DNA of 54,598 nucleotides from Paludibacter jiangxiensis. Lineage in GTDB: Bacteria > Bacteroidota > Bacteroidia > Bacteroidales > Paludibacteraceae. The notes beneath the pieces are model-generated. The model was not told the DNA's origin and searched no databases. It worked only from the letters and a program-made list of their open reading frames with translations. The position numbers were made by a program, and so were the translations under genes. Below are positions 157 through 49,350 of the stretch, one piece after another. Location of the stretch: positions 1 to 54,598 of the forward strand of contig CAMBSB010000016.1 in the NCBI GenBank assembly GCA_945870155.1, in the 5' to 3' direction. Within the stretch, counting starts at the first letter, position 1. Each line of letters opens with the position of its first letter.

Positions 157-2349
157 TTACAATTCTAATTGATTTTTTACCAAACTATAATACGCTCCAT
201 GTTTTTTAGTGAGCTCCTGATGTGTTCCAATTTCTACTATCTCCCCTTTTTCGAGCACTACTATTTGATCTGCGTTTTTAACCGTACTTAGCCTATGCGC
301 AATAACTATAGATGTTCTACCTACAAAAAATTTGTGCAGGTTATCCATGATTATTCTTTCATTATTGGTATCCAATGCATTGGTTGCTTCATCGAGCATA
401 ACAAAGGCAGGATTTTTATACACCGCGCGGGCAATTAATATCCTTTGTTTTTGTCCCTGACTCAAACCATGTCCTTCATTTCCAATTTTGGTATTGTACG
501 TTAAGGGAAGTGTCTCGATAAATTCCTTGATATTGGCTGTGATTACAGCATTCATCAAGCGTTCTTTATCTATAATTTCTACACCCGGTGCAATATTTTT
601 AGCTATGCTGTCCGAAAAAATATAACCATCCTGCATCACCACACCACATTGTTTACGCCACTCGCGAATGCTGAAATTTTTCAGGTTAATTCCTCCTAAG
701 TGTATATCACCATTTTGCAAAGGGTAATAACCAAGTAAGAGTTTTATCAAAGTAGTTTTTCCACTTCCACTGGTTCCCACTATAGCTGTTTGTTTACCAG
801 CCGGAATGCATAAATGCACACCTTTAATCACGGGTACGCCTACCGAAGTGGCATCATAGCCAAAAGTAAGATTGCTTAATACCAAATCTTTATCAGTAGG
901 AATATCCAATATGCGTTGTTCGTCTGTTTGTTCTTCATCTTCTTTATCGTGTACATCGCTTAATCGTTCCAGACTTAATTTGGCATCCTGGGTTTCGCGC
1001 ACAAAAGAAATAAGTTGATCCACGGGACCATTGAGTTGTCCGATAATGTATTGTACAGCCATCATCATACCCAAAGTCATTTGCCCATCAATGACCAACT
1101 TAGCAACCATTGCTGTGATAATAATATTTTTAGTCTGATTTATTAGTAAAGCTCCCGAATCCTGATATTGCGAAAGTGCCATTCCTCTGATACGAATTCT
1201 AAAAAGTTTGGCCTGAATGCGCTCCCATTCCCAACGCTTTTGATGTTCACAGCCATTGAGTTTTACTTCCTGCATACCGGTAACCAATTGTATAACATTG
1301 CTTTGGTTGGCTGAGTTTTGGGCAAAGCTTTTGTGATCCAATTCAGCTCTGTATTTCATAAACATCCATACCCAACCCAGGTACAATGCACTGCCCAAAA
1401 AGAAAATAGCAAAAATACTGTAGCTATAGAGAAATAATACGATACTGAAAATTACCATATTAAACATTGAGAACAATATGCTCAGACTTGAATTGGTTAA
1501 ATAGCTCTGAATGCGCGAATGATCGTTAATACGCTGTAGAATGTCGCCAACCATTTTGGTGTCGAAATAACCCATAGGCAGACGCATCATTTTAATCAGG
1601 AAATCGGAAATAAGGGCTATATTAATGCGTGTACCCAGATGCAACAATATCCAACCACGTATAAAACCTACGGCGGAACTACTAAAAGTTAATACTAACT
1701 GAGCTATCAATACCAGGTAGATATAACCGATATTTTGCGCACTTATACCAAAATCGACTATGCTCTGAGTAAGAAAAGGCAACATTAATTGCAGTAAACT
1801 GCCAAAAAGCAAACCTAAAAAAAGTTGTACTACCAGATTTTTATAGGGACGGAGGTAGGAGAATAAAAATGAAAAACCTTTTCGATTTATTTTTTCACCC
1901 TCCAACTTATAAAAATCGGGGGTGGGTTCAAGCAACAAAGCCACACCCACATCTACACCACCGTCCCTGGTACTTAACCAGCAACGACAAAACTCTTCGG
2001 CGGTATATTTCACTTTCCCTGAAGCCGGGTCTGCAATATAAATACTATCCTTACCCTTTTTTTCAACAATATCATATACCACTACAAAATGAACCTGATT
2101 CCAATGAACTATGCAGGGTAAAGGAGCTGTTTTTAATTCATTATAATTTACCTTTACTCCAGTGGTTCTAAACCCAATATTTTCGGCAGCTTCGCTTACA
2201 CCCAACATGGAAGTACCCTCGCGGGTTATCAATGATTTTTCTCTTAAATTCTCAAGTGAATAAACCCGCCCATAATGCGCTGCTACCATGCGCAAACAAG
2301 TAGGTCCGCAATCCATGGCATCGTGTTGAAAATAATGTGGAAATTTCAT
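157..2349 (-). CDS. Peptidase-containing ABC transporter (C39 peptidase, bacteriocin-type exporter)
   Basis: An inner-membrane exporter that should cleave double-glycine leader peptides and export the core. The 730 aa match the usual length of the family. An N-terminal C39 peptidase domain (about 1-130) has the signature QHDAMDCGPTCLRM with Cys14, His87 and Asp107 as the likely catalytic triad. An ABC transmembrane domain follows (about 165-460), then a nucleotide-binding domain with Walker A GTSGSGKTT (525-533), signature LSQGQKQR, Walker B FVMLDEATNALD and switch His in IVIAHRLST. It is the last gene of the 7642-157 run and its start overlaps the upstream gene's stop by 4 bp, so the two are translationally coupled. 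An intact C39 domain implies GG-type substrates, and two such precursors are encoded at 11.3-13.4 kb. Family assignment is firm; the substrate is inferred. Confidence 0.95.
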   Translation of the reverse strand: MKFPHYFQHDAMDCGPTCLRMVAAHYGRVYSLENLREKSLITREGTSMLGVSEAAENIGFRTTGVKVNYNELKTAPLPCIVHWNQVHFVVVYDIVEKKGKDSIYIADPASGKVKYTAEEFCRCWLSTRDGGVDVGVALLLEPTPDFYKLEGEKINRKGFSFLFSYLRPYKNLVVQLFLGLLFGSLLQLMLPFLTQSIVDFGISAQNIGYIYLVLIAQLVLTFSSSAVGFIRGWILLHLGTRINIALISDFLIKMMRLPMGYFDTKMVGDILQRINDHSRIQSYLTNSSLSILFSMFNMVIFSIVLFLYSYSIFAIFFLGSALYLGWVWMFMKYRAELDHKSFAQNSANQSNVIQLVTGMQEVKLNGCEHQKRWEWERIQAKLFRIRIRGMALSQYQDSGALLINQTKNIIITAMVAKLVIDGQMTLGMMMAVQYIIGQLNGPVDQLISFVRETQDAKLSLERLSDVHDKEDEEQTDEQRILDIPTDKDLVLSNLTFGYDATSVGVPVIKGVHLCIPAGKQTAIVGTSGSGKTTLIKLLLGYYPLQNGDIHLGGINLKNFSIREWRKQCGVVMQDGYIFSDSIAKNIAPGVEIIDKERLMNAVITANIKEFIETLPLTYNTKIGNEGHGLSQGQKQRILIARAVYKNPAFVMLDEATNALDTNNERIIMDNLHKFFVGRTSIVIAHRLSTVKNADQIVVLEKGEIVEIGTHQELTKKHGAYYSLVKNQLEL

Positions 2350-3188
2350 TTGTAAATTTTGGTTGCAGAAAAGTAAAACACATCAGGAATTGGATTTAAA
2401 ATAGTTGACTTTGTACACTCTCTTTTAAATCTTACAAGATGATATAACATCGCTTCAAATGTGTTTTTATAATAGATATGACCATTATTCCAAGAGATTT
2501 TTCCAGGCGTACCTTCAACTACCATAAATTCAAAAAGCGCTTTTAATTCTCCATTTGTCTCAGCCTTTTTAACAATATGTGTCATACTCTCAATTTCACA
2601 ATCTACCTCAAATATTGATTGACCTAATGATAATTGTTTAAAAACAAAATTACATTCATCAAAACAATAATGATTAGCAGTACTAAAGACTTTTCGATAA
2701 TCGCGACTTTTCATAAACAAAGTATTTATATACTCATTGTTCCGAAATAAACAAAATGAACCTGTAATATAGTCATGTCGACTACTAATTACATCATAAT
2801 CAATTAAAACATCATCTGTGATAAATTCACGTATTTTACCATAAACAATATCAATATCACTAATACCCCAAAAATCATAACCGGAAATAATCTCAGGAAA
2901 GATAAAACCATAAGCGGGTTTAATATCACATAGTTTGTAAGGGTAATCAATATTCACTAAAAATCCTAATCTTTCTGAAGCAATTTTTATTATGTCGTTT
3001 AATGATTTGATTATAATTTTCAGATTTTCAGGCTTATTTTCAATATTTTCTTGATTATCAGTTATTATTACAAAATCCACATTCAAATTATACCTACAAG
3101 AATGAACAAAGTATTTAAAATACCATGGATAAGACCCATACCAACAAGTGATAAGTATTATTTTTTTTTGACACATATTTGTTTCCAA
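2346..3188 (-). CDS. DUF6625-like glycosyltransferase family protein
   Basis: A 280-aa protein without signal peptide or membrane segment, so probably cytoplasmic. It opens with a Rossmann-like strand (KIILITCWYGSYPWYFKYF) and has an acidic DxD-type motif in DFWGISDIDIVYG near residue 110, followed by SRHDYITGSFCLFRNN. These features match the DUF6625 glycosyltransferase-like proteins. It sits between a two-domain GT2 gene (35-bp gap) and the C39 exporter (4-bp overlap), so it probably acts on the same product, perhaps adding or extending a sugar on an exported peptide. Codon 5 (ATG at 3176) is an alternative start. The donor and acceptor are unknown. Confidence 0.7.
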   Translation of the reverse strand: METNMCQKKIILITCWYGSYPWYFKYFVHSCRYNLNVDFVIITDNQENIENKPENLKIIIKSLNDIIKIASERLGFLVNIDYPYKLCDIKPAYGFIFPEIISGYDFWGISDIDIVYGKIREFITDDVLIDYDVISSRHDYITGSFCLFRNNEYINTLFMKSRDYRKVFSTANHYCFDECNFVFKQLSLGQSIFEVDCEIESMTHIVKKAETNGELKALFEFMVVEGTPGKISWNNGHIYYKNTFEAMLYHLVRFKRECTKSTILNPIPDVFYFSATKIYK

Positions 3189-3223
3189 GTCAATACATTG
3201 TAAAAATCCAATTATAAATCTAG

Positions 3224-4816
3224 CTATTCCTTTAAATTGTAAAAGTTACCATCCATGCAAACAATGTCATTAACATCTAATAAGACGGCATTATCATTTA
3301 ACATGTGTTTGTAATTAGTTTGATCATTAGCAATGTCTTCTTTCTGATAAAAATTATATTTCTCTTTTCTTAAACTATTTGAAGCCATGCCATAATGTTT
3401 AAACAGTATTTCTCCATGTTTTATGTTTTGTTTGTACGGTACAACATCAAAATGTACTCGAATTTTAGGTGTAAATATCTGAGCATGTCCTATATTTCTA
3501 AACATCCTTAACTTTTCCATTATTCCATTCTTAGAGTATGGATAGTTTGAATTATAACAATCATTATTATTCCAGATATTTACAAAATTGAATAGAATAT
3601 TATCAGTTTTAATATCATTTTCTACTTTTCTGAAATTAGCAAATCTTTTATCAAATCTTTCATCTGTATCCATAAAGCAAATCCATTCTGTGCTAAAATA
3701 CGAAACTAAATCCAGCAAAAGGTTTCTATTCTCAATATCAATAAAGCCTATTCTAGTTTTCTTCACTTTTAATATTAGTTTTGAATTCTCAGCTAATTGA
3801 TATGTATTATCTGTACTACCATCATCTAGTAAAATAATTCCATCAAAATACAAAGACATGTTTTCCAAAAAATCTTGAATCATATCTTGTTCATTAAAAC
3901 TTTGAGTCAACAAAATTTTCTTGTATTTTTTACTGAAAATATTTTCACCACTTATTTTGTAGGTATCAAATTGATTTAAAAATTTTACAGCAATGTTTTC
4001 TGCATAAATATTATATTTCCAATCGTAAACAACATCATTATAATCAAGTCCCCAACCGTTTTTGTTCACCTCATAATTATTTGGATAATAAATATCAAGT
4101 TCTTCATTTATTGGAATAGACAACCGTTTTTCTCTTCTTTTTTCCATACCATTTTTGTCTTTTTCTCGATGATTAAGTTTAACTTCTGGTAGGAATAGTT
4201 TACTTAATCCAAGCATTTCTAATCTTGCTCTGATATTGTCGTCATCACCACCCCATAAAACAAGAGATTCATCATATCCTCCAATTTTATGAATATCTTC
4301 ACTCTTAACCATTATACTGCCATAAGGCACGTAACGATACCAATTTAATTGGTTTTGATCATCTTCAAGAGTAAAAGTAACTGATCCAATTGCAAAATGT
4401 TGATTATAATCTTCTAATGCTTTTCTAAGAATGTAAATTGCATCTGTTTGAAATTCAGATTCAGGAGAACAAACCATTATAAATTTCTTCGAAGCATGCT
4501 TTATCCCCACATTTATCGCCTTTACTGGATTGCGCCAAGCGTGTTTCTGATGGTTTACTATTACACGCCAATTAATAAAAGGGTAAGATTTTATTAATTC
4601 TAACAGCCCCGTTTCCTGACTATTTTCGTCCATCGAAATAACAACTTCAATACCATTGCGTTGGAAGAATGGAGCATTCAATGGTAAAACTCTTACAAAT
4701 TCATCCAGCTTTTTGTAAAATGGAATAACGACGCTTAAATCAAAATTATGTATGATGCTGTAAGGATCAAGCAAATCTTCCTTATTCAAAATTGGCTCAT
4801 TCTTCATACTTAACAA
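3224..4816 (-). CDS. Two-domain glycosyltransferase (GT2 plus GT2)
   Basis: A 530-aa cytoplasmic protein with two GT-A modules. The N-terminal module (about 25-235) starts LSVVIPFYKKLDEFVRVLP, carries SPESEF as a probable acidic metal site, and ends in the LVLWGGDDDNIRARL signature typical of GT2/GT7-like galactosyltransferase C-termini. The C-terminal module (about 300-500) has GIILLDDGSTDNT and WICFMDTDERF, a layout resembling peptide S-glycosyltransferases of the SunS type but without their TPR tail. Its 5' end overlaps the upstream gene by 20 bp, or 11 bp if translation starts at Met4 (4807). With the neighbouring exporter and precursor genes, a role in glycosylating a peptide is a reasonable inference; a cell-surface glycan is the main alternative. 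Confidence 0.8.
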   Translation of the reverse strand: MLSMKNEPILNKEDLLDPYSIIHNFDLSVVIPFYKKLDEFVRVLPLNAPFFQRNGIEVVISMDENSQETGLLELIKSYPFINWRVIVNHQKHAWRNPVKAINVGIKHASKKFIMVCSPESEFQTDAIYILRKALEDYNQHFAIGSVTFTLEDDQNQLNWYRYVPYGSIMVKSEDIHKIGGYDESLVLWGGDDDNIRARLEMLGLSKLFLPEVKLNHREKDKNGMEKRREKRLSIPINEELDIYYPNNYEVNKNGWGLDYNDVVYDWKYNIYAENIAVKFLNQFDTYKISGENIFSKKYKKILLTQSFNEQDMIQDFLENMSLYFDGIILLDDGSTDNTYQLAENSKLILKVKKTRIGFIDIENRNLLLDLVSYFSTEWICFMDTDERFDKRFANFRKVENDIKTDNILFNFVNIWNNNDCYNSNYPYSKNGIMEKLRMFRNIGHAQIFTPKIRVHFDVVPYKQNIKHGEILFKHYGMASNSLRKEKYNFYQKEDIANDQTNYKHMLNDNAVLLDVNDIVCMDGNFYNLKE

Positions 4817-6020
4817 GTATTTTATTTGTGATTAAATTTTCTACAAATTGAATGAATGTTTTTTTATTACTTCGTTTAATTTGATTGAAAACATAGATAG
4901 GAGTAGATGCAACTTCAAACAATTGTATTATTTTATATTCAGCATCACTAATTAGTGAATGAATTTTCATCACTCTACTATCTACTACTACATATGAATC
5001 ATTCTCATATTTAATAAAATAATACACAGAACTTAATATAAGTTTTGAACTCCATACATCTACTTTTAAAATGACTGAGTTAATCTGGTTTTCAAGTAAA
5101 TTTGAGGAATGTGTAAATTGATCTTCTACAAATGATCGAAGTTGAATTGTTTCATCTTTACCTTTTTCACTCATATTCACTAAACACTCAATTTCATAAG
5201 AAAGCAGGTTAAATGGTATTGACTCACCATACTGAGCACCTGGCCTTCCTTGAAAATAGTTTTGAAATTGCTGCTGAATGTTCTCTGTACTTACCATCCG
5301 ACCAAAACCATATCGTCCAATAACAATAGAAGGTTTTTCTAATTGTAAGCTTCTTAAAATAAACTCACCGGAACCGATTACACCACTTGAACTAGAAATA
5401 TATTCATTTAAATCACCTTCTTTTACTTTTATAATATCAATATTACTATTAATTAATTTCTTTAAAATTGCAGAATCATTATTTATGATTGTAAAATGAT
5501 ATTCACCATGATTATTCAAAACAGGTAATACTTTTAGTATAGTATCATTATCGGTACATACAATAATATTTGTTTTTTTCTGAGTTTTTATTAAGTCTTT
5601 ATTTATTAATTTAAAAGGAACAATCAAATTCGTAGTAAAATCATTCCGAAAAAAGTTCGGATGAAAATTCCGATCATCATTTATTAATAAAATTTTTTCA
5701 AATTGAGTTGTATTGAATAAATACTCCTTATTAATATCACTAACACAAAATGTATAAATAAGCGGTATATTGTAGTTCTTATGCAAATTCTTTACCCGAT
5801 TAAAGCCCTTTAAATTAAAAGCAATAATTGCATCATACCTAACTTCAATGTAACTATTTATAAAATTGACATTTGATTTTTTTTTATAATTATCAGTATT
5901 TTGAGATGACAAAAAATCAATTTTATAACCTTTTGCTATGAGCATATCAATTAAGCCTTCAACAATACTGATATGTGTTGGAGTTTTACTAAATACCGAA
6001 AAAAGAATTCTCTTTTCCAT
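4797..6020 (-). CDS. GT-B-like protein with PqqD/RRE-like C-terminal domain
   Basis: A 407-aa cytoplasmic protein that I cannot assign to a named family. Residues 1-300 look like a GT-B fold: an N-terminal HISIVEGLIDMLIAKGY segment typical of glycosyltransferase N-domains, and a motif near 215-245 (SGEFILRSLQLEKPSIVIGR) matching the nucleotide-binding signature of GT-B enzymes. The last 65 residues (VVVDSRVMKIHSLISDAEYK, then a helix-turn-helix-like stretch) resemble PqqD-type winged helices, the RiPP recognition elements that bind leader peptides. It overlaps the downstream GT2 gene and follows the S41 protease by 17 bp. If the RRE reading is right, this protein ties the glycosyltransferases to the GG-leader peptides. 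Confidence 0.55.
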   Translation of the reverse strand: MEKRILFSVFSKTPTHISIVEGLIDMLIAKGYKIDFLSSQNTDNYKKKSNVNFINSYIEVRYDAIIAFNLKGFNRVKNLHKNYNIPLIYTFCVSDINKEYLFNTTQFEKILLINDDRNFHPNFFRNDFTTNLIVPFKLINKDLIKTQKKTNIIVCTDNDTILKVLPVLNNHGEYHFTIINNDSAILKKLINSNIDIIKVKEGDLNEYISSSSGVIGSGEFILRSLQLEKPSIVIGRYGFGRMVSTENIQQQFQNYFQGRPGAQYGESIPFNLLSYEIECLVNMSEKGKDETIQLRSFVEDQFTHSSNLLENQINSVILKVDVWSSKLILSSVYYFIKYENDSYVVVDSRVMKIHSLISDAEYKIIQLFEVASTPIYVFNQIKRSNKKTFIQFVENLITNKILVKYEE

Positions 6021-6037
6021 TGAAAATCATGATTTTA

Positions 6038-7642
6038 TTAATTGATTTGTTTTGAAATAACTTCAATTGCTTTTTCAACATCTTTATCAACTGTTTGATT
6101 AAGATATTCATCAAGTGTATAATCAACTAAAATATCAGGTACGATACCTTCATTGAATGGTTGCAGAGAATATGGGAATAACACTCTTCTGGTACAAACT
6201 TTCGCAACTCCGTTTTCAGGAAATTTATCAAGTACCAAAGGTGAACCTGTTGAACCCATGGTAGGACGACCAATAAAAACAGGTCTATCTTTTCTTTCTT
6301 TTAGTACGATAAGGAAATCTTCTGCTGCCGAGCAGGTGCGACCTGAGATTAAAACTGCCATGGGAACATTAAATCTTTTTACCGTATTAGGTATCCTCAT
6401 AGTATCGGCAGCAAAAGTTTGAAAAGCTCTGTTCTTAAAATAAGTTTCATTCTCTTTTAAGTAATTACCATTTGCTTTTTTTACTCCGCTGTTTATTCTG
6501 GTTTGCCATGCGTAAGATAAAAAGTAAGAGTCTTTAATCATATAGTTAAGCAAATACCACCCTGTACGGGTATCACCGCCACCATTGGCTCTTATGTCGA
6601 TAATTATTCCCTTGGCACTATATAGGGTATCAATTATACTTTCAAACATCTTAACAAGTCTGTCTTTTGGATAAAATGAGTTGAAAGTTACACGGGCTAT
6701 ATTATTTTTTTCCCAAAATAGCTCTACCGGCTTATACCAAGGTTTTGGAGTCGGTCCTAGATATTTTCCTGCAACTGAGTTTCCATTACGGGGAGGAGTG
6801 TTGGTAAGAATTCTTCCATCGGGTGTTTTATAAGTAATTGTTATTTTCTTTGAAGATAAATCGGAGCCAAAAAGGCGGGAAGCAGATATTTCTTTTACTG
6901 TAGGTCTGTAACCAGAACAAACATAGGTTTCTACATATTTCTGCATATATTCAAGCATTGGCAAGTCGTTAATTTTTAAAATTTCAGAGCCCAAAGGAAT
7001 TTTTTTTACAAGATCCTCTCTTACATTAACTATATACAGTCTGTCGCCAAAATAACGTGCTTCCAATGGAAAGTAACTTGAATATCTGCCTTTCATTTTA
7101 TAAAAAACCTCCGAATGCAAATCTTTAAGACTCGCGGCAAATAACTCCATTTGGTCATAAAAATCATAATCGGTTTTTGTATCTAATACTTTAGGGATAT
7201 ATGACTCATATAAGCTATCTAAGTCGAATGGTAATCTATCAATAAAGGCAAAATTATATTTTGTTTCACTCCAAAACGAACTCAATGCATATACTTTGTC
7301 TTTATTACTAAGCGCATTGGGTATTTTATTGCTAAAGTTAATCAGCACCTGAGCAGTATCCTTATTATTTAAGACAATTGCTAGTTTTACCGGTTTATTA
7401 AGTTTCACAATGAAAGTGGCTGAATCAATGTCGGTGATAAACCGTATTGTTCGTTCCTTTTCAGTTTCACTATACATAGTATAAATGTCAGGATTTAGCT
7501 CGGGAGAAATAGTCCAATCATTTCTCCCTGTGTTAATCATCATTACTATGTTTTTTTTGTTTGAATGTATAATGGTTGGTTGCTTTGCAAACATAGTTAA
7601 TATAACCATGCATAAAATTAAAAATGAAATAACTCTTCTCAT
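6038..7642 (-). CDS. S41 family peptidase (C-terminal processing protease-like), exported
   Basis: A 534-aa protein with an N-terminal signal sequence (MRRVISFLILCMVILTMFA). The S41 core spans about 310-510: IIIDIRANGGGDTRTGWYLL, and the nucleophile motif GRTCSAAEDF with Ser438. A degenerate PDZ-like stretch precedes it (about 200-280, LGSEILKINDLPMLEYM). It probably works in the periplasm or at the outer membrane. It is the first gene of the five-gene run ending at 157, with only 17 bp to the next gene, so it could trim an exported product or be a linked housekeeping protease. The substrate cannot be read from the sequence. Confidence 0.85.
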   Translation of the reverse strand: MRRVISFLILCMVILTMFAKQPTIIHSNKKNIVMMINTGRNDWTISPELNPDIYTMYSETEKERTIRFITDIDSATFIVKLNKPVKLAIVLNNKDTAQVLINFSNKIPNALSNKDKVYALSSFWSETKYNFAFIDRLPFDLDSLYESYIPKVLDTKTDYDFYDQMELFAASLKDLHSEVFYKMKGRYSSYFPLEARYFGDRLYIVNVREDLVKKIPLGSEILKINDLPMLEYMQKYVETYVCSGYRPTVKEISASRLFGSDLSSKKITITYKTPDGRILTNTPPRNGNSVAGKYLGPTPKPWYKPVELFWEKNNIARVTFNSFYPKDRLVKMFESIIDTLYSAKGIIIDIRANGGGDTRTGWYLLNYMIKDSYFLSYAWQTRINSGVKKANGNYLKENETYFKNRAFQTFAADTMRIPNTVKRFNVPMAVLISGRTCSAAEDFLIVLKERKDRPVFIGRPTMGSTGSPLVLDKFPENGVAKVCTRRVLFPYSLQPFNEGIVPDILVDYTLDEYLNQTVDKDVEKAIEVISKQIN

Positions 7643-8198
7643 GTTGTATTTGTTTTAATTATTTTAAATGTTCAATTTCCCTATCAATTATTTTAATTAC
7701 ACCCCTTGTACAAAGTAGCGTATAAAATTCATTACCAGCTGTTTGGAATAGTGTCCCGCTTTATTAAAGCTAAAAGGATTCCGATAGCTATCGGAACCTA
7801 CCTACCTCAGGAAGGCTTTGCATTTAACCCGACGAATTCTGGACTCTTAGCCGAACTCCCTCACCAATTACACTTTAGCTAACAGAGTGTTATTTTGAGC
7901 TTTTTGCTTTATAACCTAAGCTGAACTGAGAGATTCATTTGGAAAACCAAAATTCAATCTCACATTTATAGTGGATTGAGCTATCAGGTTTTCTTTCAAA
8001 AGCATAGACAAAAAAATGATAATAATTATTTTCTTCATATATTGTTTGGGATTAATAGTACACAAAGTACCAGTTTATAAGTATTTAGTAAAATTAGCTC
8101 TAAAGAGCTTTAGCTTTTAACTTATAAGAATCTTTAGCTACATATCATTCCAAACCACATACTTTAAAAATGAAATTAATTAGTATCAAAATCGATTT
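7643..8198. other. 556-bp intergenic region with a perfect palindrome and a gene remnant
   Basis: There is no intact gene here. It contains the perfect 18-bp palindrome TTCCGATAGCTATCGGAA at 7779-7796 and a truncated signal-peptide ORF at 7916-8038. The stretch 7710-7760, with ATTCATTACCA followed by a GTGTCCCGC motif, loosely resembles intergenic sequence near 14730-14760. I see no convincing TAnnTTTG promoter for the minus-strand gene at 7642. Confidence 0.5.
7916..8038 (-). pseudogene. Remnant of an exported protein gene (40 codons)
   Basis: ATG at 8038 opens a frame for MKKIIIIIFLSMLLKENLIA followed by QSTINVRLNFGFPNESLSSA and a TAG at 7916-7918. The first 20 residues are a good signal peptide, and the mature part starts like a Bacteroidota exported or DUF4369-type protein (QSTINVRLNFGFP), then stops. 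It is most simply the 5' remnant of a larger exported gene, possibly another thioredoxin-type paralogue of this locus. Confidence 0.4.
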
Positions 8199-9395
8199 TT
8201 AAAGATTTTTTCTAAATATATTGATTTCATCTGTATAAAATTTCAAATCTTTTACACTATTCTGTTCTGTTGCCACTTTTATTGCTTTTTCTTCATGTTC
8301 AATGGCTTCTTTAATAAAACCCAGACCAAAAAGAATATGTGCATAAGTATCATTTATAGGGTGATTGTCAGGGAGTGATTTTAAAGCATGCTCTTGCCAT
8401 GTTTTAGCTATTTTAAGTGCTTCAATATCATTAAAAGCCTTATAATTTTCATAAATTCTCCAACATACGTCATTTATCATCATAGGTTCAATAATGTCTT
8501 GTGTCATTATAAGCTTTGTTTTGCCAATAAGATAATCCCAACTTGCTTTATTGGTTTTGTTATTAAGAAATTTCCAATTTGACTCCGTAAATTCCTTTGT
8601 CATAATTGCTTTTGAATATAACTCAGGGTCTATTTGTTTAATTGAAGCTGCCTTTTCCGAATTGTCGCGATTTTTATAAAGATGAGTTATGAATACATTT
8701 ATTATTTTGTTATCAACGTCTTTTTTGCCAAATTTCTGATTATAGGCATCCCTGTGATTTATAAAATACCTGAACTGAGAATTATCAATATTATTAATGT
8801 GTTTTGTAAATAAATCCCATGCTTCTTTTGACATTTTTGCTTCATCGCTGGCTGTTTTAAAATATTCTTCAATCAATACATCCTTGTCTTTACCATATTC
8901 ATAGGCATTTAAATATTCCGTTAATGTTTCGATGCTTTTGTCCCCGGACTTCATTTTGTGCGTAATGGATAGTAAATTTTTAGTATTATCCATAGCTTTT
9001 TTTGCGAGTACGATAAGCATGTCGGCTTCCATAGCCCCAATCCCTACATGCACCATTTCTCCTTCAGCATTTAAAAACATAAGTGTAGGATATACTTTTA
9101 TACCGTATTTCAAAGCAATACTTTTACCTTCGCCTTGTTCCATATCGAACGAAAGATTTATAAAATGAGTATTATAAAAATCACCCACTTCTTTTTTTGG
9201 AAAAATGGTTTTGGTTAAGTACTTACATGGTCCACACCAACTGGTGTAACAATCGATAAACAAAAGTTTCCCTTCGCTTTTCGACTTTGTTAATGCTTCC
9301 GACAATGTACTGTAGTTGCTGAATTTGATACCTGCTTCTTGAGCATTAATTGAAATGCTACATACAAGGATGAATAATAATGCAAATCTTTTCAT
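8199..9395 (-). CDS. Exported thioredoxin-fold protein (WCGPC)
   Basis: A 398-aa protein with a signal peptide (MKRFALLFILVCSISINAQ) and a thioredoxin domain at about 25-135 containing CYTSWCGPCKYL and the cis-Pro region VYPTLMFLNAEGEMV. The remaining 260 residues are helical, with a TPR-like end (NDTYAHILFGLGFIKEAIEH), a layout common in Bacteroidota thioredoxin-like oxidoreductases. It should act as a disulfide reductase or isomerase in the periplasm. It is one of three thioredoxin-fold genes within 6.5 kb, close to genes for cysteine-containing GG-leader peptides, which suggests a role in forming or correcting disulfides in those peptides. Its own regulation is not visible. Confidence 0.88.
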   Translation of the reverse strand: MKRFALLFILVCSISINAQEAGIKFSNYSTLSEALTKSKSEGKLLFIDCYTSWCGPCKYLTKTIFPKKEVGDFYNTHFINLSFDMEQGEGKSIALKYGIKVYPTLMFLNAEGEMVHVGIGAMEADMLIVLAKKAMDNTKNLLSITHKMKSGDKSIETLTEYLNAYEYGKDKDVLIEEYFKTASDEAKMSKEAWDLFTKHINNIDNSQFRYFINHRDAYNQKFGKKDVDNKIINVFITHLYKNRDNSEKAASIKQIDPELYSKAIMTKEFTESNWKFLNNKTNKASWDYLIGKTKLIMTQDIIEPMMINDVCWRIYENYKAFNDIEALKIAKTWQEHALKSLPDNHPINDTYAHILFGLGFIKEAIEHEEKAIKVATEQNSVKDLKFYTDEINIFRKNL

Positions 9396-9704
9396 AATTT
9401 TAATTTGTAAATAGTTTATTTGTTTGATATTATAGTAAGAAAAATTTGATAAAATTTACCCATACTTACATCTTGTTGTATGGCAAAGGCTTCAGCCTAA
9501 GCAGAAGCTAAACTTGTCCCAGAATATCTGGAAAAGAAAACTCGTAGTTACCATTTTCTTTGCAAATATAATTCTATTCTGCTTCTGAATATGCAAGGGC
9601 AAATGGTACATACCGATTTATCGGTAGCATTGCTCTTAGAAGCGTCATAGCGTGACGCTATACTTAACAACCCCACCAACTATGCTACACCAATTAATAG
9701 TTTT
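9396..9704. repeat. Intergenic region with two hairpins and a shared repeat
   Basis: There is no gene. Hairpins lie at 9611-9626 (TACCGAT/ATCGGTA) and 9641-9659 (AGCGTCA, loop TAGCG, TGACGCT). They are followed at 9666-9696 by a segment (core ACAACCCCACCAACT) that recurs at 14776-14808 in the same orientation, again beside a gene 3' end. The stretch probably holds a degenerate dispersed repeat; the hairpins could also terminate the minus-strand signal peptidase gene, which ends at 9705. Confidence 0.5.
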
Positions 9705-11240
9705 TTATTTTTCAGCGTTTGTGAAAAACCGATTCCAACGAATCTTACCGCTAAACCAACCTTTGTCTTTATTCAATGACAACCATACCATCACTGGTCG
9801 CCCAACAATATGGTCTTCTGGAACAAAACCCCAATAACGCGAGTCGGCTGAATTATGTCGATTGTCTCCCATCATCCAATAATAATTCATTTTAAACTGA
9901 TATGTAGTCGCTGGTTTGTTATTAATGTAAAATACTCCTTTTCTTACTTCAAGTTTATTGTGTTCGTAAACACGGATTATTCTTTCGTAAATCGGAAAGT
10001 TGTAATTGTTCAAAGCTAAACGCATTCCTCGTTTAGGAATCCAGATTGAACCATAATTGTCACGTGTCCAAGTTTTGTTACCGCCTAAAGGGAAAACCTC
10101 GATATTCGGGCAAATAACAGATAGTGTGAAACCATTTCTTTTGATAATTGACAAACTCTGATCTACTATTGCTTGACATGAAGTGTTTTCTTGTTCAATC
10201 TTTAATTGTATTACACCAGTCAGACTAAGCAATTTTTGATAACTATCCTGAGTTAATGGAAAATGATAAACAGGTAATTCAAGACTGAAGTTTAATGACT
10301 TTAATTGTTCTGCACTTTGTGTATTATCTAATATCATTCTGTCTTCTTGGCTCACGCCAAGTTTATCCAATACTTCGTTATTCAGTAGAGTTCCATCTGT
10401 CTGAATATAATAGTTGAACTGTATTCCGGGAATTTTTTCCTGTTTCAGTCCGTTTACATATACCTGATTATCTTTAATAGTCAGCCAGTCACCTGCAATA
10501 GCTACACAACGTTTTACATAGTTTTCACGACGGTCAACTGGTCGATAAACAATTTCTCCGTAGTCTCTTGTATTTGATTTTACAATCTCACGACCATATT
10601 GGTAACAAAGTTCAGCAGTAGGTTTTACTGTGGGCATCTGACTTCTCATAAAAGCAAATCCTTCTTCATAGCAACTTGTGTAATAATCAGGATTCTGACG
10701 ATTCACAGCCACAGTATCTCCTGTCGGAAAATTGAATACCACAATGTCATTGCGTTTTATTTCGTCGAAACCTTTCAAGCGTTTGTAATCCCATTGTGGA
10801 TTTTCAAAAAAAGATTTGCAATTGAGCATCGGGAAAGTGTGTTGAACCAGTGGAAACGATAATGGAGTGTTTGGTACACGAGGGCCATAACTAGCCTTAC
10901 TTACAAACAAGAAATCGCCTACTAACAAAGTTTTTTCGAGCGAAGAACTTGGTATTTGGTAATTCTGAAACAGAAAAGTATTGATGAAATATACTGCTAC
11001 CAAAGCGAAAACAATCGCATCTACCCAACCCATAATAGTTAATACATACTTGTTTTTTGACGACTTCCACCAAGTCCAAGGAATGTAATGAGTAATGAAA
11101 GCGTCAACTATTAAAGGCAAACCCAAAAGCCACCAATAATTTCCAACCCACTTTATAAATAATATATATAATAAACACCAAAATATCGATTTTACCAAAT
11201 CCTGCTTGTTAACATTTAAGCTAATATTCATTTTTCTCAT
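9705..11240 (-). CDS. lepB: Signal peptidase I, large Bacteroidota form
   Basis: An inner-membrane serine protease that removes Sec signal peptides. It is about 511 aa from ATG 11240; TTG at 11246 is possible but less likely. Two N-terminal membrane stretches (about 20-55 and 68-92) precede the catalytic Ser motif YQIPSSSLEKTLLVGDFL near residue 100, the general-base Lys in ENYVKRCVAIAGD, and the conserved C-terminal box MMGDNRHNSADSRYWGFVP. A long insert of about 200 residues between Lys and the C-terminal box is usual for Bacteroidota LepB. It lies just downstream of a GG-leader precursor and upstream of a thioredoxin gene. It may be the housekeeping enzyme or a locus-specific copy; the window cannot decide. 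Confidence 0.93.
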   Translation of the reverse strand: MRKMNISLNVNKQDLVKSIFWCLLYILFIKWVGNYWWLLGLPLIVDAFITHYIPWTWWKSSKNKYVLTIMGWVDAIVFALVAVYFINTFLFQNYQIPSSSLEKTLLVGDFLFVSKASYGPRVPNTPLSFPLVQHTFPMLNCKSFFENPQWDYKRLKGFDEIKRNDIVVFNFPTGDTVAVNRQNPDYYTSCYEEGFAFMRSQMPTVKPTAELCYQYGREIVKSNTRDYGEIVYRPVDRRENYVKRCVAIAGDWLTIKDNQVYVNGLKQEKIPGIQFNYYIQTDGTLLNNEVLDKLGVSQEDRMILDNTQSAEQLKSLNFSLELPVYHFPLTQDSYQKLLSLTGVIQLKIEQENTSCQAIVDQSLSIIKRNGFTLSVICPNIEVFPLGGNKTWTRDNYGSIWIPKRGMRLALNNYNFPIYERIIRVYEHNKLEVRKGVFYINNKPATTYQFKMNYYWMMGDNRHNSADSRYWGFVPEDHIVGRPVMVWLSLNKDKGWFSGKIRWNRFFTNAEK

Positions 11241-11321
11241 ATGCAAAATATGTTGTTTTTGTTTTTTACAATTTAACCAAAGAAGTCAATTTTAATAGAC
11301 ATCTTTGGAAATTTTAAATTA

Positions 11322-11474
11322 TCAATAATTCATGCCAAATTTACCAGACACACAAGTATTGCAAAGTGAAACTTGTGGAAACGTAAAACAATCACTATTT
11401 GAATTACATGATTTAATACATTTATCATAACTACCACTTCCAACTAAAATGTTTCTCATTTCTTTACGACTCAT
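11322..11474 (-). CDS. Cys-rich GG-leader-type precursor peptide (peptide B), leader truncated
   Basis: A 50-aa ORF starting ATG 11474. It begins MSRKEMRNILVG, the C-terminal half of a Bacteroidota GG-type leader, followed by a core with five cysteines in the spacing C-x3-C-x5-C-x8-C-x2-C (SGSYDKCIKSC, SDCF, SLCNTC). A 7-codon ORF (11471-11494, MKTLKEK) lies immediately upstream, and its TGA overlaps this ATG. Comparison with the paralogous leader at 13374 shows that 22 bp are missing after MKTLK, which splits the leader into two frames. The peptide may still be made by coupled re-initiation, but the leader would be short. The core probably forms disulfides and is exported by the C39 transporter at 157-2349. 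Leader family by similarity; product unknown. Confidence 0.55.
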   Translation of the reverse strand: MSRKEMRNILVGSGSYDKCIKSCNSNSDCFTFPQVSLCNTCVSGKFGMNY

Positions 11475-11491
11475 TTTTCCTTTAATGTTTT

Positions 11492-11595
11492 CATAAATTA
11501 TATTTTATTGATTATAAAGTAATAGCGGCAAATTTCTTTTTTTATTTATTAATATCAAATGGCAACTATACCTTCCGTGCACTATACTTTTAATT
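11492..11595 (-). repeat. Conserved 5' leader region, copy 1
   Basis: The roughly 100 bp upstream of the MKTLK start closely match (about 80% by eye) the sequence upstream of the second precursor at 13372-13475. Shared blocks are the TCATAAATTATATTTT end, an ATAAAG-AATAGC-GCAAAT block and the distal block CCTTCCGTGCACT. Such conservation of a non-coding 5' region suggests a shared promoter or leader transcript controlling the two precursors. I find only an imperfect TAnTTTG-like box (CAAATT on the plus strand), so the start point is uncertain. Confidence 0.55.
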
Positions 11596-11739
11596 GTATA
11601 AATGACGATTATTTTAAAATGAAAATTATGTAAATCGTCTATATTATAAGTCCCATGTAGTTGATATACATTAATATAGTTGGTTTTAGTAAATTTATTT
11701 CTTTCTAATAACACCAATTGTTCATCGTTTATATTAGTT

Positions 11740-13044
11740 TTAGTTCATTTCATTTAAATATCTTTCTATTACACTTATAAATTTTGCATCTGACGGATGT
11801 AGTAAATTTGCATCAAGAATTTGACCATTTTGATCCAGCAAAATAAAACGTGGTATAGTCGTTATATTAAGTTTACTCAAAATATTTTCATCTTTTATTT
11901 CACTGAGTAAAAAACTATTTGTTGAATTAAAAATATCAGATTTCATTTTAGTTGATTTCAACCAATCAGTTTTACTCTTATCTATTGAAACGAAAATGTA
12001 TTTTACTTGAGGATAAGAATTTATCATTCTCTTTGCATATGGTAGTTCCTCTAAACAAGGTTTGCACCAAGAAGCCCAAAAATCTATTACCGCTAATTTA
12101 CAACCACTTTCTTTTATTATTCTCTTAAGGTATATAGAATTGACTTTTTGATCGAAATCTTTTTTTATTTCATCGATAAATTCTTTATTTTTACAATTCG
12201 TATAAAAAAGATTTAATGTATTGTTATTTATCTTTTGATGTGATAGCAGAACATTATTTTTTATGCTATTATATAATAGATAATCAATAATATCTTGATT
12301 CTTAAAATTGATTCTGACAAAATTTAAATAACTATAAATATTATCAGTTCTAAAACCAGCCATTTTCATTTTTATATAACTATAAGCTGTTAAAACTCTA
12401 CGATACTCTGCAATATTTAATAAATCGCCGGTGCTCGAGAAACTTTTCTCTAATACTTTAAACCCATCATTTTGATTTTGTTGATTATGAATTTTATTTT
12501 CTACTGTTAAACACCATAATAGCAAATTAAATTGACTATAAAATTCTTTTGAAATAAGCTTTTTGGAAAAATATTCATTAAGCATTTTTTTTTCGTTTGA
12601 ATAGTTATCATCAAATGAAGCTGATTTTGATTTAGACTCATTTCTTAACTTTCTTATGAAATTAGGCTCAAGCGAGCCATATTTAACAAAGCATTCATTA
12701 ATAAATTCAGATTCATATTTTCTTATTGAATTTGTTTCACAAGAATAATCAATCAACCCCTTTTTGTTAATATTTAGATTAATTATTTCATTAGGTTTTG
12801 CAAAAATTACGGTACGTCTATTAATATCAACACATTGAATAAATTGAGATTTTGGCGTTTTTATATTTATAATTGCATTATTTAAACTAAGAACTGATAT
12901 AGACTTACCATGTTCAGAATACAAATATGTAAAACTAATTGCGTCATTATTTTTACTATCATACTTCAAAGTTATTTGCTGTGATTGTATTGAATTAAAT
13001 GAAAAAATGAAAATGCATATAAAGAGAAATCTTGTTGTATTCAT
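11740..13044 (-). CDS. TlpA-like thiol-disulfide oxidoreductase, exported
   Basis: 434 aa when started at ATG 13044, which gives the signal peptide MNTTRFLFICIFIFSFNSIQ; the longer open frame to 13164 covers the tail of a precursor peptide and is not the real start. The C-terminal 140 residues form a TlpA/AhpC-TSA thioredoxin domain with DFWASWCKPCLEELPYAKRM and cis-Pro TTIPRFILLDQNG. The N-terminal 280 residues are a poorly conserved helical or beta region like that in other Bacteroidota TlpA-like proteins (DUF4369-type). It is paired with the precursor peptide immediately upstream and is paralogous in layout to the gene at 13502-14656. It probably acts in the periplasm on disulfides, plausibly those of the Cys-containing peptides. 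Confidence 0.85.
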   Translation of the reverse strand: MNTTRFLFICIFIFSFNSIQSQQITLKYDSKNNDAISFTYLYSEHGKSISVLSLNNAIINIKTPKSQFIQCVDINRRTVIFAKPNEIINLNINKKGLIDYSCETNSIRKYESEFINECFVKYGSLEPNFIRKLRNESKSKSASFDDNYSNEKKMLNEYFSKKLISKEFYSQFNLLLWCLTVENKIHNQQNQNDGFKVLEKSFSSTGDLLNIAEYRRVLTAYSYIKMKMAGFRTDNIYSYLNFVRINFKNQDIIDYLLYNSIKNNVLLSHQKINNNTLNLFYTNCKNKEFIDEIKKDFDQKVNSIYLKRIIKESGCKLAVIDFWASWCKPCLEELPYAKRMINSYPQVKYIFVSIDKSKTDWLKSTKMKSDIFNSTNSFLLSEIKDENILSKLNITTIPRFILLDQNGQILDANLLHPSDAKFISVIERYLNEMN

Positions 13045-13096
13045 AGTGTATTTGATTGTTAAATGAGTGTACAATAATTTTGTACACTCATTAGAT

Positions 13097-13374
13097 TTAA
13101 CATGATGCACAACACCAAAAGCCTCTAGCTGCCCCTCTATTCCTATTTGAGTCGCAAATGCCATGGCCGCGCTTTGAATATAGCTTTAACCCCAATAATA
13201 AGTCCCTCCACCAAATTCCGGTTTAAAAATACTTTTGACACAACAATTACCACCGCCACCGCCTTGCGAATCAGGTGCCTCTTATTGATTTTCATCTCCT
13301 GCCATAATGTTTCTCATTTCTTTTCTAGTCATTTTTCCTTGAATATTTTCAATGCTTATTTTTAATGTTTTCAT
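13097..13374 (-). pseudogene. GG-leader precursor peptide (peptide A) with in-frame stop and shifted Cys-rich tail
   Basis: ATG 13374 encodes the leader MKTLKISIENIQGKMTRKEM then RNIMAG, a typical Bacteroidota GG-type leader (compare TIGR04149 natural-product precursors). After DENQ a TAA stop occurs (13282-13284). The same frame then continues with EAPDSQGGGGGNCCVKSIFK and a Gly/aromatic end to a second TAA at 13186-13188. In another frame, ending at 13097, lies a tail with GHGICDSNRNRGAARGFWCC and ASC. This looks like a precursor whose core has been broken by a nonsense change and probably a frameshift. Alternatively the 30-aa form is the product, although it would have almost no core. The leader reading is strong; the decay scenario is inferred. 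Confidence 0.55.
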
Positions 13375-13475
13375 AAATTATATTTTGATTGTTTATAAAG
13401 CAATAGCTGCAAATTACTTCGATTAAATTATAAATATCCAATGGCAACCACACCTTCCGTGCACTGAACTTAACA
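13372..13475 (-). repeat. Conserved 5' leader region, copy 2
   Basis: Paralogue of the leader region at 11492-11595, including the GGCAACnAnACCTTCCGTGC-type block at 13443-13465 and the GCAAAT block. Together with the MKTLK leader and a following TlpA-like gene it forms a repeated module: 5' region, precursor, thioredoxin or processing gene. Confidence 0.5.
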
Positions 13476-13501
13476 ATAGAAGTATATTAGATTTTAGTAT
13501 T

Positions 13502-14656
13502 TTACTCAACTTTAATCAAGTTCATTAGCAAGTTTTGTAATTTCACTATATTAGTATCTTGTTCTTGTTCTTTATTATAAATCACTTTTCCCGATGGATC
13601 AATTAAAATATATTGTGGAATTGGACCTACAGCATAGTTTTTTACTATTTCCTGATTTCCAAATACATGTACAAAAGATGTGTTTGTCTTTTTTAATGCT
13701 CTTGAAAAACTTGCAAACTCTGTATCGAGTGAAATTGATATAATTTCAAGTTTATTTTCAGGATACTTTTCCCTTAATTCTTGTATCTTAGGTGTTAGTT
13801 GTAAACATGGCAAACACCACGAAGCCCAGAAATCAAGTAAAATGTATTTTCCTTTTAAATTGCTTGATGAATACTCTTTTTTATTTATATCTAACACCTT
13901 AAAGCTTGGCGACTCACTTCCTTTCTTAGAATTTATTTGGCTTTTTAGGGCATTTTCAACATTAAAACCTAATTGTGTTAACTTTAGACTATTTGGAAAA
14001 GTATTTCTGAAGAACTCAAGCTTTTCTTTTGCACTTATTGAATTGCGTACCAGTACAACATAATTAAAATAATAATATAAAAAGTAATAATCATTGGGGT
14101 GTATACTTATCATTTTAAGATCTACTAATGCCAAACTGTCAACCATTGTCTGAAATATTTCTCTTTTTTGAGGTTGTATCTCAAAACTATCAATATTTTG
14201 ATATAGAAACCTGTCAATTTGTAAACGAGCTTGTTGAATATCAACATCAACTTTCTTTTTATATAAATCATAGTGAGATATTGCATTTACAGTATTGGAT
14301 TCGGTAATAGGGTTATCCAAAGATTTCAATTTTGGATTAAAATTGATTTTTGCAGGCTTTTCAGATATCCAAAATTTGTAACCTTTTACAAAACCTTTAT
14401 CATTTTCTCTCCAATAATAAAACGAGATAGTTGCATAACGATCAAAAAATGAATCAGTTAAAATCCATTTATTATTTTTTATCACAGGCGTGATGTGCTT
14501 ATCTAACTTTCCATTATCAAAATATACCGAAAGTCTCTCTAAGTTAATACCTTCAGGAAAACACACTTCTAAATTTATGTTTTTCCCAAATAAAGAATTT
14601 ACAACACCCCAAATCAAAAGCAATAAAAAAATCTTATTTTTTATAGTTTTATTCAT
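13502..14656 (-). CDS. TlpA-like thiol-disulfide oxidoreductase, exported
   Basis: 384 aa from ATG 14656, the start that places the signal peptide (NKTIKNKIFLLLLIWGVV) at the N-terminus; the frame stays open to 14722. The N-terminal 240 residues resemble the DUF4369-type region of Bacteroidota TlpA proteins. The C-terminal domain has LDFWASWCLPCLQLTPKIQ and the cis-Pro motif GPIPQYILIDPSGK. It is the most upstream gene of the peptide locus and sits immediately before the peptide A leader region. It should be a periplasmic disulfide reductase or isomerase. It shares only the general fold with the 11740-13044 protein. Confidence 0.87.
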   Translation of the reverse strand: MNKTIKNKIFLLLLIWGVVNSLFGKNINLEVCFPEGINLERLSVYFDNGKLDKHITPVIKNNKWILTDSFFDRYATISFYYWRENDKGFVKGYKFWISEKPAKINFNPKLKSLDNPITESNTVNAISHYDLYKKKVDVDIQQARLQIDRFLYQNIDSFEIQPQKREIFQTMVDSLALVDLKMISIHPNDYYFLYYYFNYVVLVRNSISAKEKLEFFRNTFPNSLKLTQLGFNVENALKSQINSKKGSESPSFKVLDINKKEYSSSNLKGKYILLDFWASWCLPCLQLTPKIQELREKYPENKLEIISISLDTEFASFSRALKKTNTSFVHVFGNQEIVKNYAVGPIPQYILIDPSGKVIYNKEQEQDTNIVKLQNLLMNLIKVE

Positions 14657-20043: not shown

Positions 20044-21411
20044 ATGAAATTGATCACACCCATACATATCACCTACATAGCGGCAATTTGTTTGCTGTTT
20101 ATCCTGGGGTCACAGGCATATTTGGTTTATGATTATTTTCAGACTACCCGTGCAGGGCTGATACGTGAGTCGGATACAGTTTTGGAAGAGGCGTTTAAAA
20201 AGGATTTGGCATTAAGATACACTCAAAGTTCGATTCTTGATAAAAAAACTCCAATTAATTTGAATTTAAAATCAACAAAACCTGCTTTCGAAAAAAGGAC
20301 TAAATATGATTTTAGTAACCGGAAAGATTATAAAAACAATATTCTGGGTTTATTAGATATTGTCATGAACATTCAAATAAGCAAAACTATACCCTTGGAT
20401 ATACATCAAATGGATAGTATTATATCCGGTATTTTAAAATCCAGGGGTATTAATACCAATTATATGATTTATATGCTCCATCCAAAAAGTGGCAAAATCA
20501 TATTAAAGTCGGATATCAATTATAAATCTACTTCACTATTTCAAATTTCATCCAAGTACCTGACCATAGATATTATTAATGATAAAGCCTTACAATTGGT
20601 ATTGGTGAATCCCTTTGGCATTGTTATCAAGCGCATGAGTTTTATGTTACTAAGTTCTTTGATATTATCAATTATATGTTTACTGGCATTCAGGGCATTG
20701 TATGACATGCTGGCCCGGCAAAAAAAACTGGTTGCTTTTAAAAACGAATTTTTAAGTACCATAGCGCATGAATTAAAACGTCCGGTAGCCAGTTTGTCGT
20801 TTAACCTGGATTGCCTGAGTGCTCCTGCATTTATCAACAACCAATCTAAACGTGATATGCTGCTCAGCAAATCGATCAATGCCACTACCGAGCTGAATAG
20901 TACTATTAATATGATAGTGGGGCTTGCCAAGCTGGAGGAAGGCTTGTTGACATTGGACTTAAAACCCATCAACCTGAAAGAATTGCTTGATGAGCTAAAA
21001 ATAAGGTTTATAAGTAATGCGGTAAAACAAATTGAAATTGAAACCACCTACCAAGCGGATAAAGATTTTATTATTACGGGCGATGCCCAATTGCTGAGTC
21101 AGTGTTTTGCCAATTTGATAGATAATGCCATAAAGTATTCTGATAATGAAGTATTGATAATTATAAGCATATGTGAGGAAGCCGGGGGAATAAAAGTTTC
21201 GGTCAAAGACAATGGATTGGGCATACCCGAAGCCAAATTACCCGTGATTTTTGATAAATACACACGTGTACATGCCGATATAACCAAAGTAAATGGCTTT
21301 GGAATAGGATTGAACTATGTTAAAACCATAGTCGAAAAACACGGGGGTACAGTGGAAGTTAAAAGCGAACCGGGCAAAGGAAGTGAATTTATTGTGTTGT
21401 TACCAAAGTAA
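20044..21411 (+). CDS. Sensor histidine kinase (HisKA, two membrane segments)
   Basis: 455 aa. Membrane segments at about 7-29 and 198-220 enclose a ~170-residue periplasmic sensor domain of unknown ligand. The cytoplasmic part has the HisKA H-box FLSTIAHELKRP with His242, then the HATPase_c N-box FANLIDNAIKYSD, G1 VKDNGLGIPEAKLPVIFDKY and G2 GFGIGLNYVKTIVEKHGG. It should autophosphorylate and pass phosphate to the OmpR-type regulator at 22641-23333. The two genes would be adjacent were it not for the 1.2-kb REP/transposase island between them. Confidence 0.93.
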   Translation: MKLITPIHITYIAAICLLFILGSQAYLVYDYFQTTRAGLIRESDTVLEEAFKKDLALRYTQSSILDKKTPINLNLKSTKPAFEKRTKYDFSNRKDYKNNILGLLDIVMNIQISKTIPLDIHQMDSIISGILKSRGINTNYMIYMLHPKSGKIILKSDINYKSTSLFQISSKYLTIDIINDKALQLVLVNPFGIVIKRMSFMLLSSLILSIICLLAFRALYDMLARQKKLVAFKNEFLSTIAHELKRPVASLSFNLDCLSAPAFINNQSKRDMLLSKSINATTELNSTINMIVGLAKLEEGLLTLDLKPINLKELLDELKIRFISNAVKQIEIETTYQADKDFIITGDAQLLSQCFANLIDNAIKYSDNEVLIIISICEEAGGIKVSVKDNGLGIPEAKLPVIFDKYTRVHADITKVNGFGIGLNYVKTIVEKHGGTVEVKSEPGKGSEFIVLLPK

Positions 21412-21851
21412 AAATTCCCCGTCAGGGGATAGATATTAATAAAAATAAATTAGGTGTAGTACAAGCAAGCGTTAAGCTGGGTAAAATAAAATGAATGTAT
21501 ATGTCCTACGGACAAAAAATATATTTTTTAATTTGTTCTATTGATATATAAGTCCTACGGACTATCTTTCAAATTTTAAAATTGTTGTTTAAATCGAATT
21601 ATTTCCCGTTAGGGGATATGTGTTAATAGAAATTGTTGTATAAATCGAATTATTCCCCATAGGAGATATAGAAAAGTTTATTAATCAAATTATTCCCCGT
21701 TAGGGGATAGATATCAATAGAAATTGTATATTTATCAAAATATTCCCCGTAGGGGATGGATATTAATAGCAATGTTTTTTAATATAAATAGTCCCCGTTA
21801 GGGAATAAATATTAATAATAAAACAAATTACAATTATCAATTAATAAAATT
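21412..21851. repeat. REP-like palindrome array, left flank of the transposase gene
   Basis: The array starts 2 bp after the kinase stop. Palindromes of the type ATTCCCCGTnAGGGGAT, mostly followed by AGATATTAATAG, lie near 21414, 21599, 21648, 21694, 21742 and 21787. GTCCTACGGAC palindromes lie at 21503-21513 and 21551-21563. The stretch 21414-21566 is repeated directly at 22460-22612. Spacing is irregular, so this is not a CRISPR array. Short palindromes flanking a Y1 transposase gene are the hallmark of REP/RAYT systems. Confidence 0.8.
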
Positions 21852-22612: not shown

Positions 22613-22640
22613 TTTTATTGAACTCTAAAACAACAATCTT
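22314..22640. repeat. REP-like palindrome array, right flank
   Basis: CCCCTACGGGG palindromes, inverted relative to the left side at 22322-22337, continue with copies near 22424 and 22460. GTCCTAC(G/T/A)GAC-type palindromes lie near 22365, 22552 and 22602. The stretch 22350-22430 also repeats the order of 21532-21610. The array ends about 25 bp before the response-regulator start. Confidence 0.75.
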
Positions 22641-48709: not shown

Positions 48710-48730
48710 ACAAATATTAAAATAAAATCT

Positions 48731-49330: not shown

Positions 49331-49350
49331 TCAAACAATAAAATAAAAAT

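Follow-up and report, generated by a model that had tools for sequence, protein, structure and literature searches.

The gene cluster considered here lies at positions 157 to 14,656, all of it on the minus strand, of contig CAMBSB010000016.1 of Paludibacter jiangxiensis, a member of the Bacteroidales (assembly GCA_945870155.1); this whole contig of 54,598 nucleotides (nt), C16 in a draft genome of 5.79 Mb, 339 contigs and 97.9% completeness, is the window below. Several described systems resemble it. Glycocins such as sublancin (with its enzyme SunS), enterocin F4-9 and thermoglycocin bring together a leader peptide, a family 2 glycosyltransferase (GT2), thiol oxidoreductases and a C39 exporter, and their products carry sugar on Cys, Ser or Thr and two disulfides. 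Passages of a 2022 paper count ten experimentally identified members, in Bacillota (PMC9576775). The bacteroidetocins (class IIf) have a short leader, a Cys-containing core, a C39-type exporter and a thiol oxidoreductase, the leaders of bacteroidetocins A and B being of 15 residues and ending GG, with four Cys in each peptide (passages of PMC6671954). Some strains of B. fragilis and of P. distasonis have areas holding radical SAM, LanC and GlyS genes, and of nine clusters selected in that work two contain glycosyltransferases (PMC10352776, in part); a putative glycocin gene is mentioned for a B. fragilis strain (PMC4922554, in part), and glycosyltransferases fused to a recognition element (RRE) for leaders of ribosomally synthesised and post-translationally modified peptides (RiPPs) appear in passages of PMC7470986 and PMC12710340. 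Going by these portions, glycosylation of Bacteroidales leader peptides (GlyS) and glycosyltransferase fusions with a leader-binding domain are already published as predictions.

The cluster in the window probably encodes a Bacteroidales RiPP pathway that glycosylates leader peptides, built around a recurring gene pair, a GT-B-like protein and a two-domain glycosyltransferase with a GT7C-region half and a GT2 half (the double GT), and here it does so without the TIGR04148 radical SAM maturase. What carries this reading is that the pair stands beside leader-peptide open reading frames (ORFs) in all six places where a full or nearly full double GT was found, and that a C39 exporter, three thioredoxin-fold proteins and two precursor genes sharing a leader occur together in the window on one strand. 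No description of the pair was found in the passages of the papers cited in this text, a result that holds for these searches only; from the clusters of PMC10352776, PMC7470986 and PMC12710340 the window is set apart by description only. The features, with the expectation values (E) of their matches, are these.

157–2349, minus strand: C39 peptidase-containing ABC exporter (PCAT); PF03412 1.2e-34, PF00664, PF00005
2346–3188, minus strand: DUF6625 protein, possible glycosyltransferase; PF20330 6.2e-60
3224–4816, minus strand: double glycosyltransferase, GT7C-region N-terminal half and GT2 C-terminal half; PF00535 4.7e-18 in two stretches, PF02709 2.7e-7
4797–6020, minus strand: 407-residue GT-B-like protein adjoining the double GT, possible C-terminal RRE-like domain; end region of TIGR03975, 4.7e-4
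6038–7642, minus strand: S41 peptidase; PF03572 1.5e-18, carboxyl-terminal proteases of the PDB 1.2e-7
8199–9395, minus strand: thioredoxin-fold protein; PF13899, PF13098, PF00085
9705–11246, minus strand: second signal peptidase I (LepB paralogue); PF10502 7.5e-39
11322–11474, minus strand: precursor A, an ORF with a short leader ending VG and a 38-residue core with five Cys; leader and upstream region common to B
11559–11583, minus strand: 25-nt box upstream of precursor A, common to B, from a box search
11740–13044, minus strand: TlpA-like thioredoxin-fold protein, start taken at 13044; PF13905 4.6e-14
13072–13281, minus strand: continuation of precursor B, coding-like in the frame of the leader and interrupted by another in-frame TAA; codon score 23.0
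13282–13374, minus strand: precursor B, an ORF with the common leader ending AG and four more residues, then an in-frame TAA
13441–13465, minus strand: 25-nt box upstream of precursor B, common to A, from a box search
13502–14656, minus strand: TlpA-like thioredoxin-fold protein, start taken at 14656; PF13905 9.5e-19, PF00578, PF08534

These matches, from a Pfam scan of the cluster ORFs and selected other ORFs of the window, bear out the exporter, the DUF6625 protein, the double GT2, the S41 protease and the three thioredoxin-fold proteins of a first-pass annotation that had taken the cluster for a glycocin-like pathway. That annotation also spoke of two GG-leader precursors with Cys-containing cores, which is right for the core of precursor A but not for the GG, found in neither leader, nor for precursor B, which a TAA cuts. 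The upstream regions and leaders of A and B are 75% identical over 166 aligned columns (E 1.5e-33) while their cores are unrelated, and a common leader with divergent cores is what RiPP precursors typically show. Only these two sites in the window's genome carry the leader DNA pattern, and the 25-nt upstream box gave two matches against none in 100 shuffles. Precursor A reads from an internal ATG with a leader of 12 residues, its frame has a codon score of 13.9, the other two scoring 7.1 and −6.1, and no NCBIfam family, TIGR04149 included, matched it at E up to 1.

The recurrence of the pair comes from genome searches with the double GT in overlapping sets, namely 100 relatives, 395 genomes of the phylum, 71, 123 and 3 of the families of genomes G297, G348 and G223, 393 of the order and 399 of another family. 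Five genomes hold full or nearly full copies, at six places in all: the window, G223, G297, G938 and the contigs C3 and C29 of G348, the copy on C29 having lost its start at the contig end. This makes the two-domain enzyme rare among the genomes sampled. In 5 of the 5 places with the upstream side on the contig (a side only partly present at G348:C3) the GT-B-like gene immediately precedes the double GT in the same orientation, with an overlap or a gap of at most 50 nt. The leader-peptide ORFs are all within 7 kb of the double GT: about 6.5 kb from it in the window, about 6.9 kb in G223 (L031:302-502), 76 nt in G938 (L027:11560-11802), and at L017:6781-7152 in G297, L018:3360-3551 in G348:C3 and L028:1615-1866 and 8170-8373 in G348:C29. 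Curated leader models score above their cut-offs for four of the six peptides of the relatives, TIGR04149 for those of L031 and L028 (twice) and NF038153 for that of L027, for which TIGR04149 stays below its cut-off. C39 exporters occur in four of the six places (the window, G223, G297 and G348:C29); none was recognised in the 7.2-kb contig G348:C3, nor in 36 kb of G938, where the last 16 kb were covered as ORFs of at least 200 residues, two of them translated. A protein search with the double GT gave 400 proteins at E of 1e-30 or less, and the names among the 120 matches listed are Bacteroidales, Bacteroidia, Paludibacteraceae and Parabacteroides chinchillae; the partner protein at the G938 locus is listed as Parabacteroides bouchesdurhonensis.

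These contexts speak to the view that the window holds an ordinary polysaccharide locus with an exporter as chance neighbour. Three glycosyltransferase-like proteins are what such a locus would have, and single-domain relatives do occur in glycan loci; the C39 exporter, the duplicated leader with its divergent cores and the RiPP models met in the relatives all point the other way, and we regard this view as very improbable. The first-pass annotation had named glycosyltransferase homologues lying consistently in polysaccharide loci as the observation that would count against it, and for the pair this check did not refute it, a leader-peptide ORF lying near every full or nearly full double GT.

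What surrounds the pair differs from place to place. TIGR04148 and TIGR04150 score above their cut-offs in G223 and G348:C29, and in G348:C3 the corresponding genes are in pieces and score below, so that the pair sits inside clusters of the radical SAM leader-peptide kind known from Bacteroidales (TIGR04148/TIGR04149/TIGR04150). The window departs from these systems: precursor A lacks a TIGR04149 match, and its draft genome has no TIGR04148 protein above the cut-off of 300 bits, with eight sub-threshold matches, the best at 53.6 bits, and to this extent the earlier claim that radical SAM enzymes are absent holds; for LanB, LanC, YcaO and ATP-grasp enzymes the coverage is the Pfam scan of the cluster and of selected other ORFs in the window. 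Three radical SAM-like ORFs in a row, likewise under the TIGR04148 cut-off, were seen at G000:C50:18602-22684. In G297 a LanC-like protein is near the pair, and no radical SAM enzyme was recognised in 36 kb inspected by eye and not by model scan. Between the pair and the precursor of G223 come a GT10 fucosyltransferase, a GT2 and two Gly_transf_sug proteins; the same cluster (L016:9530-16371 with L031:302-502) also has a GLPGLI protein, TIGR04148, TIGR04150, a C39 exporter and HlyD. A protease gene comes directly after the precursor in G938 (S41) and in G297 and G348:C29 (aspartyl/PDZ type, the call in G348:C29 resting on weak matches); the S41 gene of the window adjoins the GT-B-like gene, not a precursor. 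Beside the G297 cluster (L040:10683-15994) several CPBP-like membrane proteins, judged by eye, and further aspartyl-protease-like paralogues are seen.

The two halves of the double GT have different structural neighbours. With a profile of 53 members, the best PDB match of the second half is 7msk (8.3e-10), followed by the SunS structures 7msp (4.4e-8) and 7msn (8.2e-8); 7msk carries a generic name in the database output and is presumably the thurandacin enzyme. The first half matches 6p61 (2.7e-10), chondroitin synthase and beta-1,4-galactosyltransferases. Acidic motifs are kept in both halves across the 53 relatives, LDD and DxDE of the second being invariant and WGG(E/D)DD of the first invariant or nearly so. 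Two longer relatives, P0028 and P0085, list among their Pfam domains PF08795 and PF01522 respectively.

The partner protein of 407 residues is harder to place. A protein search with it alone gave five entries, itself included, and a profile of eight relatives at least nine among 8000 candidates scored. It has no Pfam glycosyltransferase match of its own, Pfam and NCBIfam name no GT-B family for it, and PF13477 is matched by one of nine relatives (0.002), so its description as a GT-B enzyme is tentative. Its C-terminus matches positions 486-598 of TIGR03975 (E 4.7e-4), weakly and in two of nine members, and HTH_47 is matched by one relative (0.0036). Contig scans with the protein, or with alignment A1, gave no confirmed locus. 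Three candidates from this side were set aside: PDB matches of profile A5 to designed TIM barrels, judged to be chance; a match in G392 (E 3e-4) that overlaps a transporter-like ORF in another reading; and G348:C21, a broken GT-B-like gene fragment lacking both a recognisable double GT and, within 19 kb, a leader ORF.

A good number of observations weigh against a glycosylated-peptide pathway. The window's double GT has no match to the SunS model TIGR04195. That model is weakly matched by 34 of the 53 relatives, with a best E of 5.6e-12 and, for one of them, 42 bits against a cut-off of 350; TIGR04283 is matched by 38 of the 53, many other GT2 models scoring alike, and for these two reasons the likeness of the GT2 half to SunS is suggestive only. 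As for the RRE-like end that the first-pass annotation gave the GT-B-like protein, beside the weak TIGR03975 match a profile of the last 98 residues found no RRE in the PDB, hhalign against the N-termini of five clustered radical SAM or pseudo-radical SAM proteins was null, and the leader-binding domain is unconfirmed. Single-domain relatives of the second GT half in G200 and G219 lie among glycosyltransferases and ABC transporters, in which no C39 domain was seen by eye, and so the second half is akin to enzymes of glycan loci; in G1197 a broken copy of that half is present, and 15 kb around it contain no leader ORF. The leader association accordingly belongs to the two-domain form, in six places only. 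A DUF6625 piece is present in the glycan locus L043 as well, so DUF6625 is not diagnostic. The window's leaders are missed by a strict GG motif and were found with a looser one only; the strict motif gives one hit in the window, within a ribosomal-protein-like ORF, and two hits (L042, L040) across a further eight stretches totalling about 114 kb, being absent from L019, L020, L039, L041, L043 and L045, and because it fires in unrelated stretches the motif alone is not specific. The peptides of L017 and L018 matched no model. The pair's company of radical SAM genes in G223 and G348 or of a LanC-like protein in G297 means that modification by glycosyltransferases only is a feature of this contig and not of the family. 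The end of the contig just past the exporter, which the first-pass annotation missed together with the second LepB, also counts here, since the exporter gene ends at base 157 and genes following it are cut off there.

The precursors add to these points. The leader of A lacks 22 nt that are present in B, and B has an in-frame TAA four residues past its leader. Beyond this TAA the leader frame scores 23.0 over 70 codons, with −13.6 and −14.7 in the other frames, and a second in-frame TAA lies inside the continuation. For comparison, real genes average 24.9 (standard deviation 8.8, n=122), and the maxima are 15.2 for wrong frames (n=244) and 20.2 for intergenic stretches (n=66). Recoding of TAA finds no support, as TAA ends 16 of the 20 window genes used and is therefore an ordinary stop; a frame change within B was rejected, the leader frame scoring as coding throughout, as was a peptide from the alternative-frame ORF 13143-13295, whose frame scores −13.6. 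By its sequence, then, precursor B is a broken gene or a misassembly. The two stops in B and the shortened leader of A would both follow if the cluster were of the proposed kind and no longer worked in this genome. Every enzyme gene is open, however, A retains the last 12 leader residues in a frame that scores as coding, and an error of the draft assembly is possible, so that loss of function seems improbable. Altogether the earlier claim of a glycocin-like pathway is supported in part: it gains from the pair having leader peptides close by in all six places, and is weakened by the unmatched SunS model, the unproven RRE, the broken precursor and the contig end.

Compared with glycocins, the window has the C39 exporter, the thioredoxin-fold proteins and, in core A, the five Cys that most characterised members have (PMC12457901, PMC8620827, each in part). 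It differs from them in having a two-domain glycosyltransferase, a GT-B-like partner as a protein apart, and a DUF6625 protein, in an enzyme that the SunS model does not match, and in a Bacteroidales host rather than one of the Bacillota. On the side of the precursors the comparison is mixed, the five Cys of core A standing beside a leader that ends VG, and B being broken. Glycocin clusters beyond Firmicutes have reportedly been collected by Singh and Rao in 2021, and such loci may already be among them. Bacteroidetocins offer another account, an unglycosylated disulfide peptide, with the glycosyltransferases making something else such as a surface or immunity-related glycan. The core set of short leader peptide, C39-type exporter and thiol oxidoreductase is the same (PMC6671954, in part), and relatives of the GT2 half and of the DUF6625 protein occur in glycan loci. 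Against this, the pair lies beside leader peptides wherever a full or nearly full double GT was found, and the passages of PMC6671954 yielded no mention of glycosyltransferases, which the window's cluster has; we consider this account unlikely, if the least so of the alternatives. The leader of A also departs from the values given for bacteroidetocins A and B, with 12 residues and a VG end before a core with five Cys.

On the favoured reading of a glycosylated leader-peptide pathway, the course of events that we infer, from the peptide as sugar acceptor through leader binding, the order and type of sugars and the disulfides to the roles of S41 and LepB, would be the following. The product would be a glycosylated, disulfide-bonded, secreted RiPP, made from precursor A and formerly also from B, with a double-glycine-type leader. 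One cytoplasmic unit may be formed by the GT-B-like protein, which would hold the leader, and the two-domain enzyme, whose SunS-like GT2 half would add a first sugar to a Cys, Ser or Thr residue in the core and whose GT7C half, perhaps with the DUF6625 protein, would extend that sugar. The C39 exporter would then cleave the leader and carry the peptide across the inner membrane, the thioredoxin-fold proteins would set the disulfides, and the S41 protease, perhaps with the extra LepB, would complete processing. Such a pathway would work like that of a glycocin; we do not file it as one because the SunS model, when tried, does not match the window's double GT.

Some of the accessory genes can be described further. 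The exporter is the sole C39 protein of the window's genome (one match in a search of that genome). The DUF6625 protein has no sequence match in the PDB, and its possible glycosyltransferase nature goes back to the judgement of the first-pass annotation. The cluster's LepB shares 68% identity with the copy on contig C159, which adjoins a WbqC-like gene (by eye); going by its position, the cluster's LepB perhaps belongs to the pathway. Export is predicted for all three thioredoxin-fold proteins, with N-termini judged by eye; the two TlpA-like ones align in the thioredoxin domain only (28% over 97 residues), so that duplication of a whole gene-peptide unit is not demonstrated. Elsewhere in the window, an IS200-like transposase separates a histidine kinase from a response regulator at 20044-23333, and three consecutive phage tail collar domain proteins (PF07484) follow a TPR histidine kinase at 48110-49941.

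A wider reading, which we hold as tentative and on balance doubtful, is that Bacteroidales possess a two-protein machine, a leader-holding GT-B-like protein with a fused GT7C-GT2 enzyme, dedicated to glycan assembly on secreted leader peptides, the window being a stripped-down form and the whole a RiPP class of its own and not a kind of glycocin. Its products might, with the same reserve, range between one or two added sugars and oligosaccharides, G223 being an example. Given a link of the pair to leader peptides in Bacteroidales, among them genomes apparently of Parabacteroides, and given an intact peptide and an intact pair at the G938 locus, peptide glycosylation in common gut bacteria would become directly testable.

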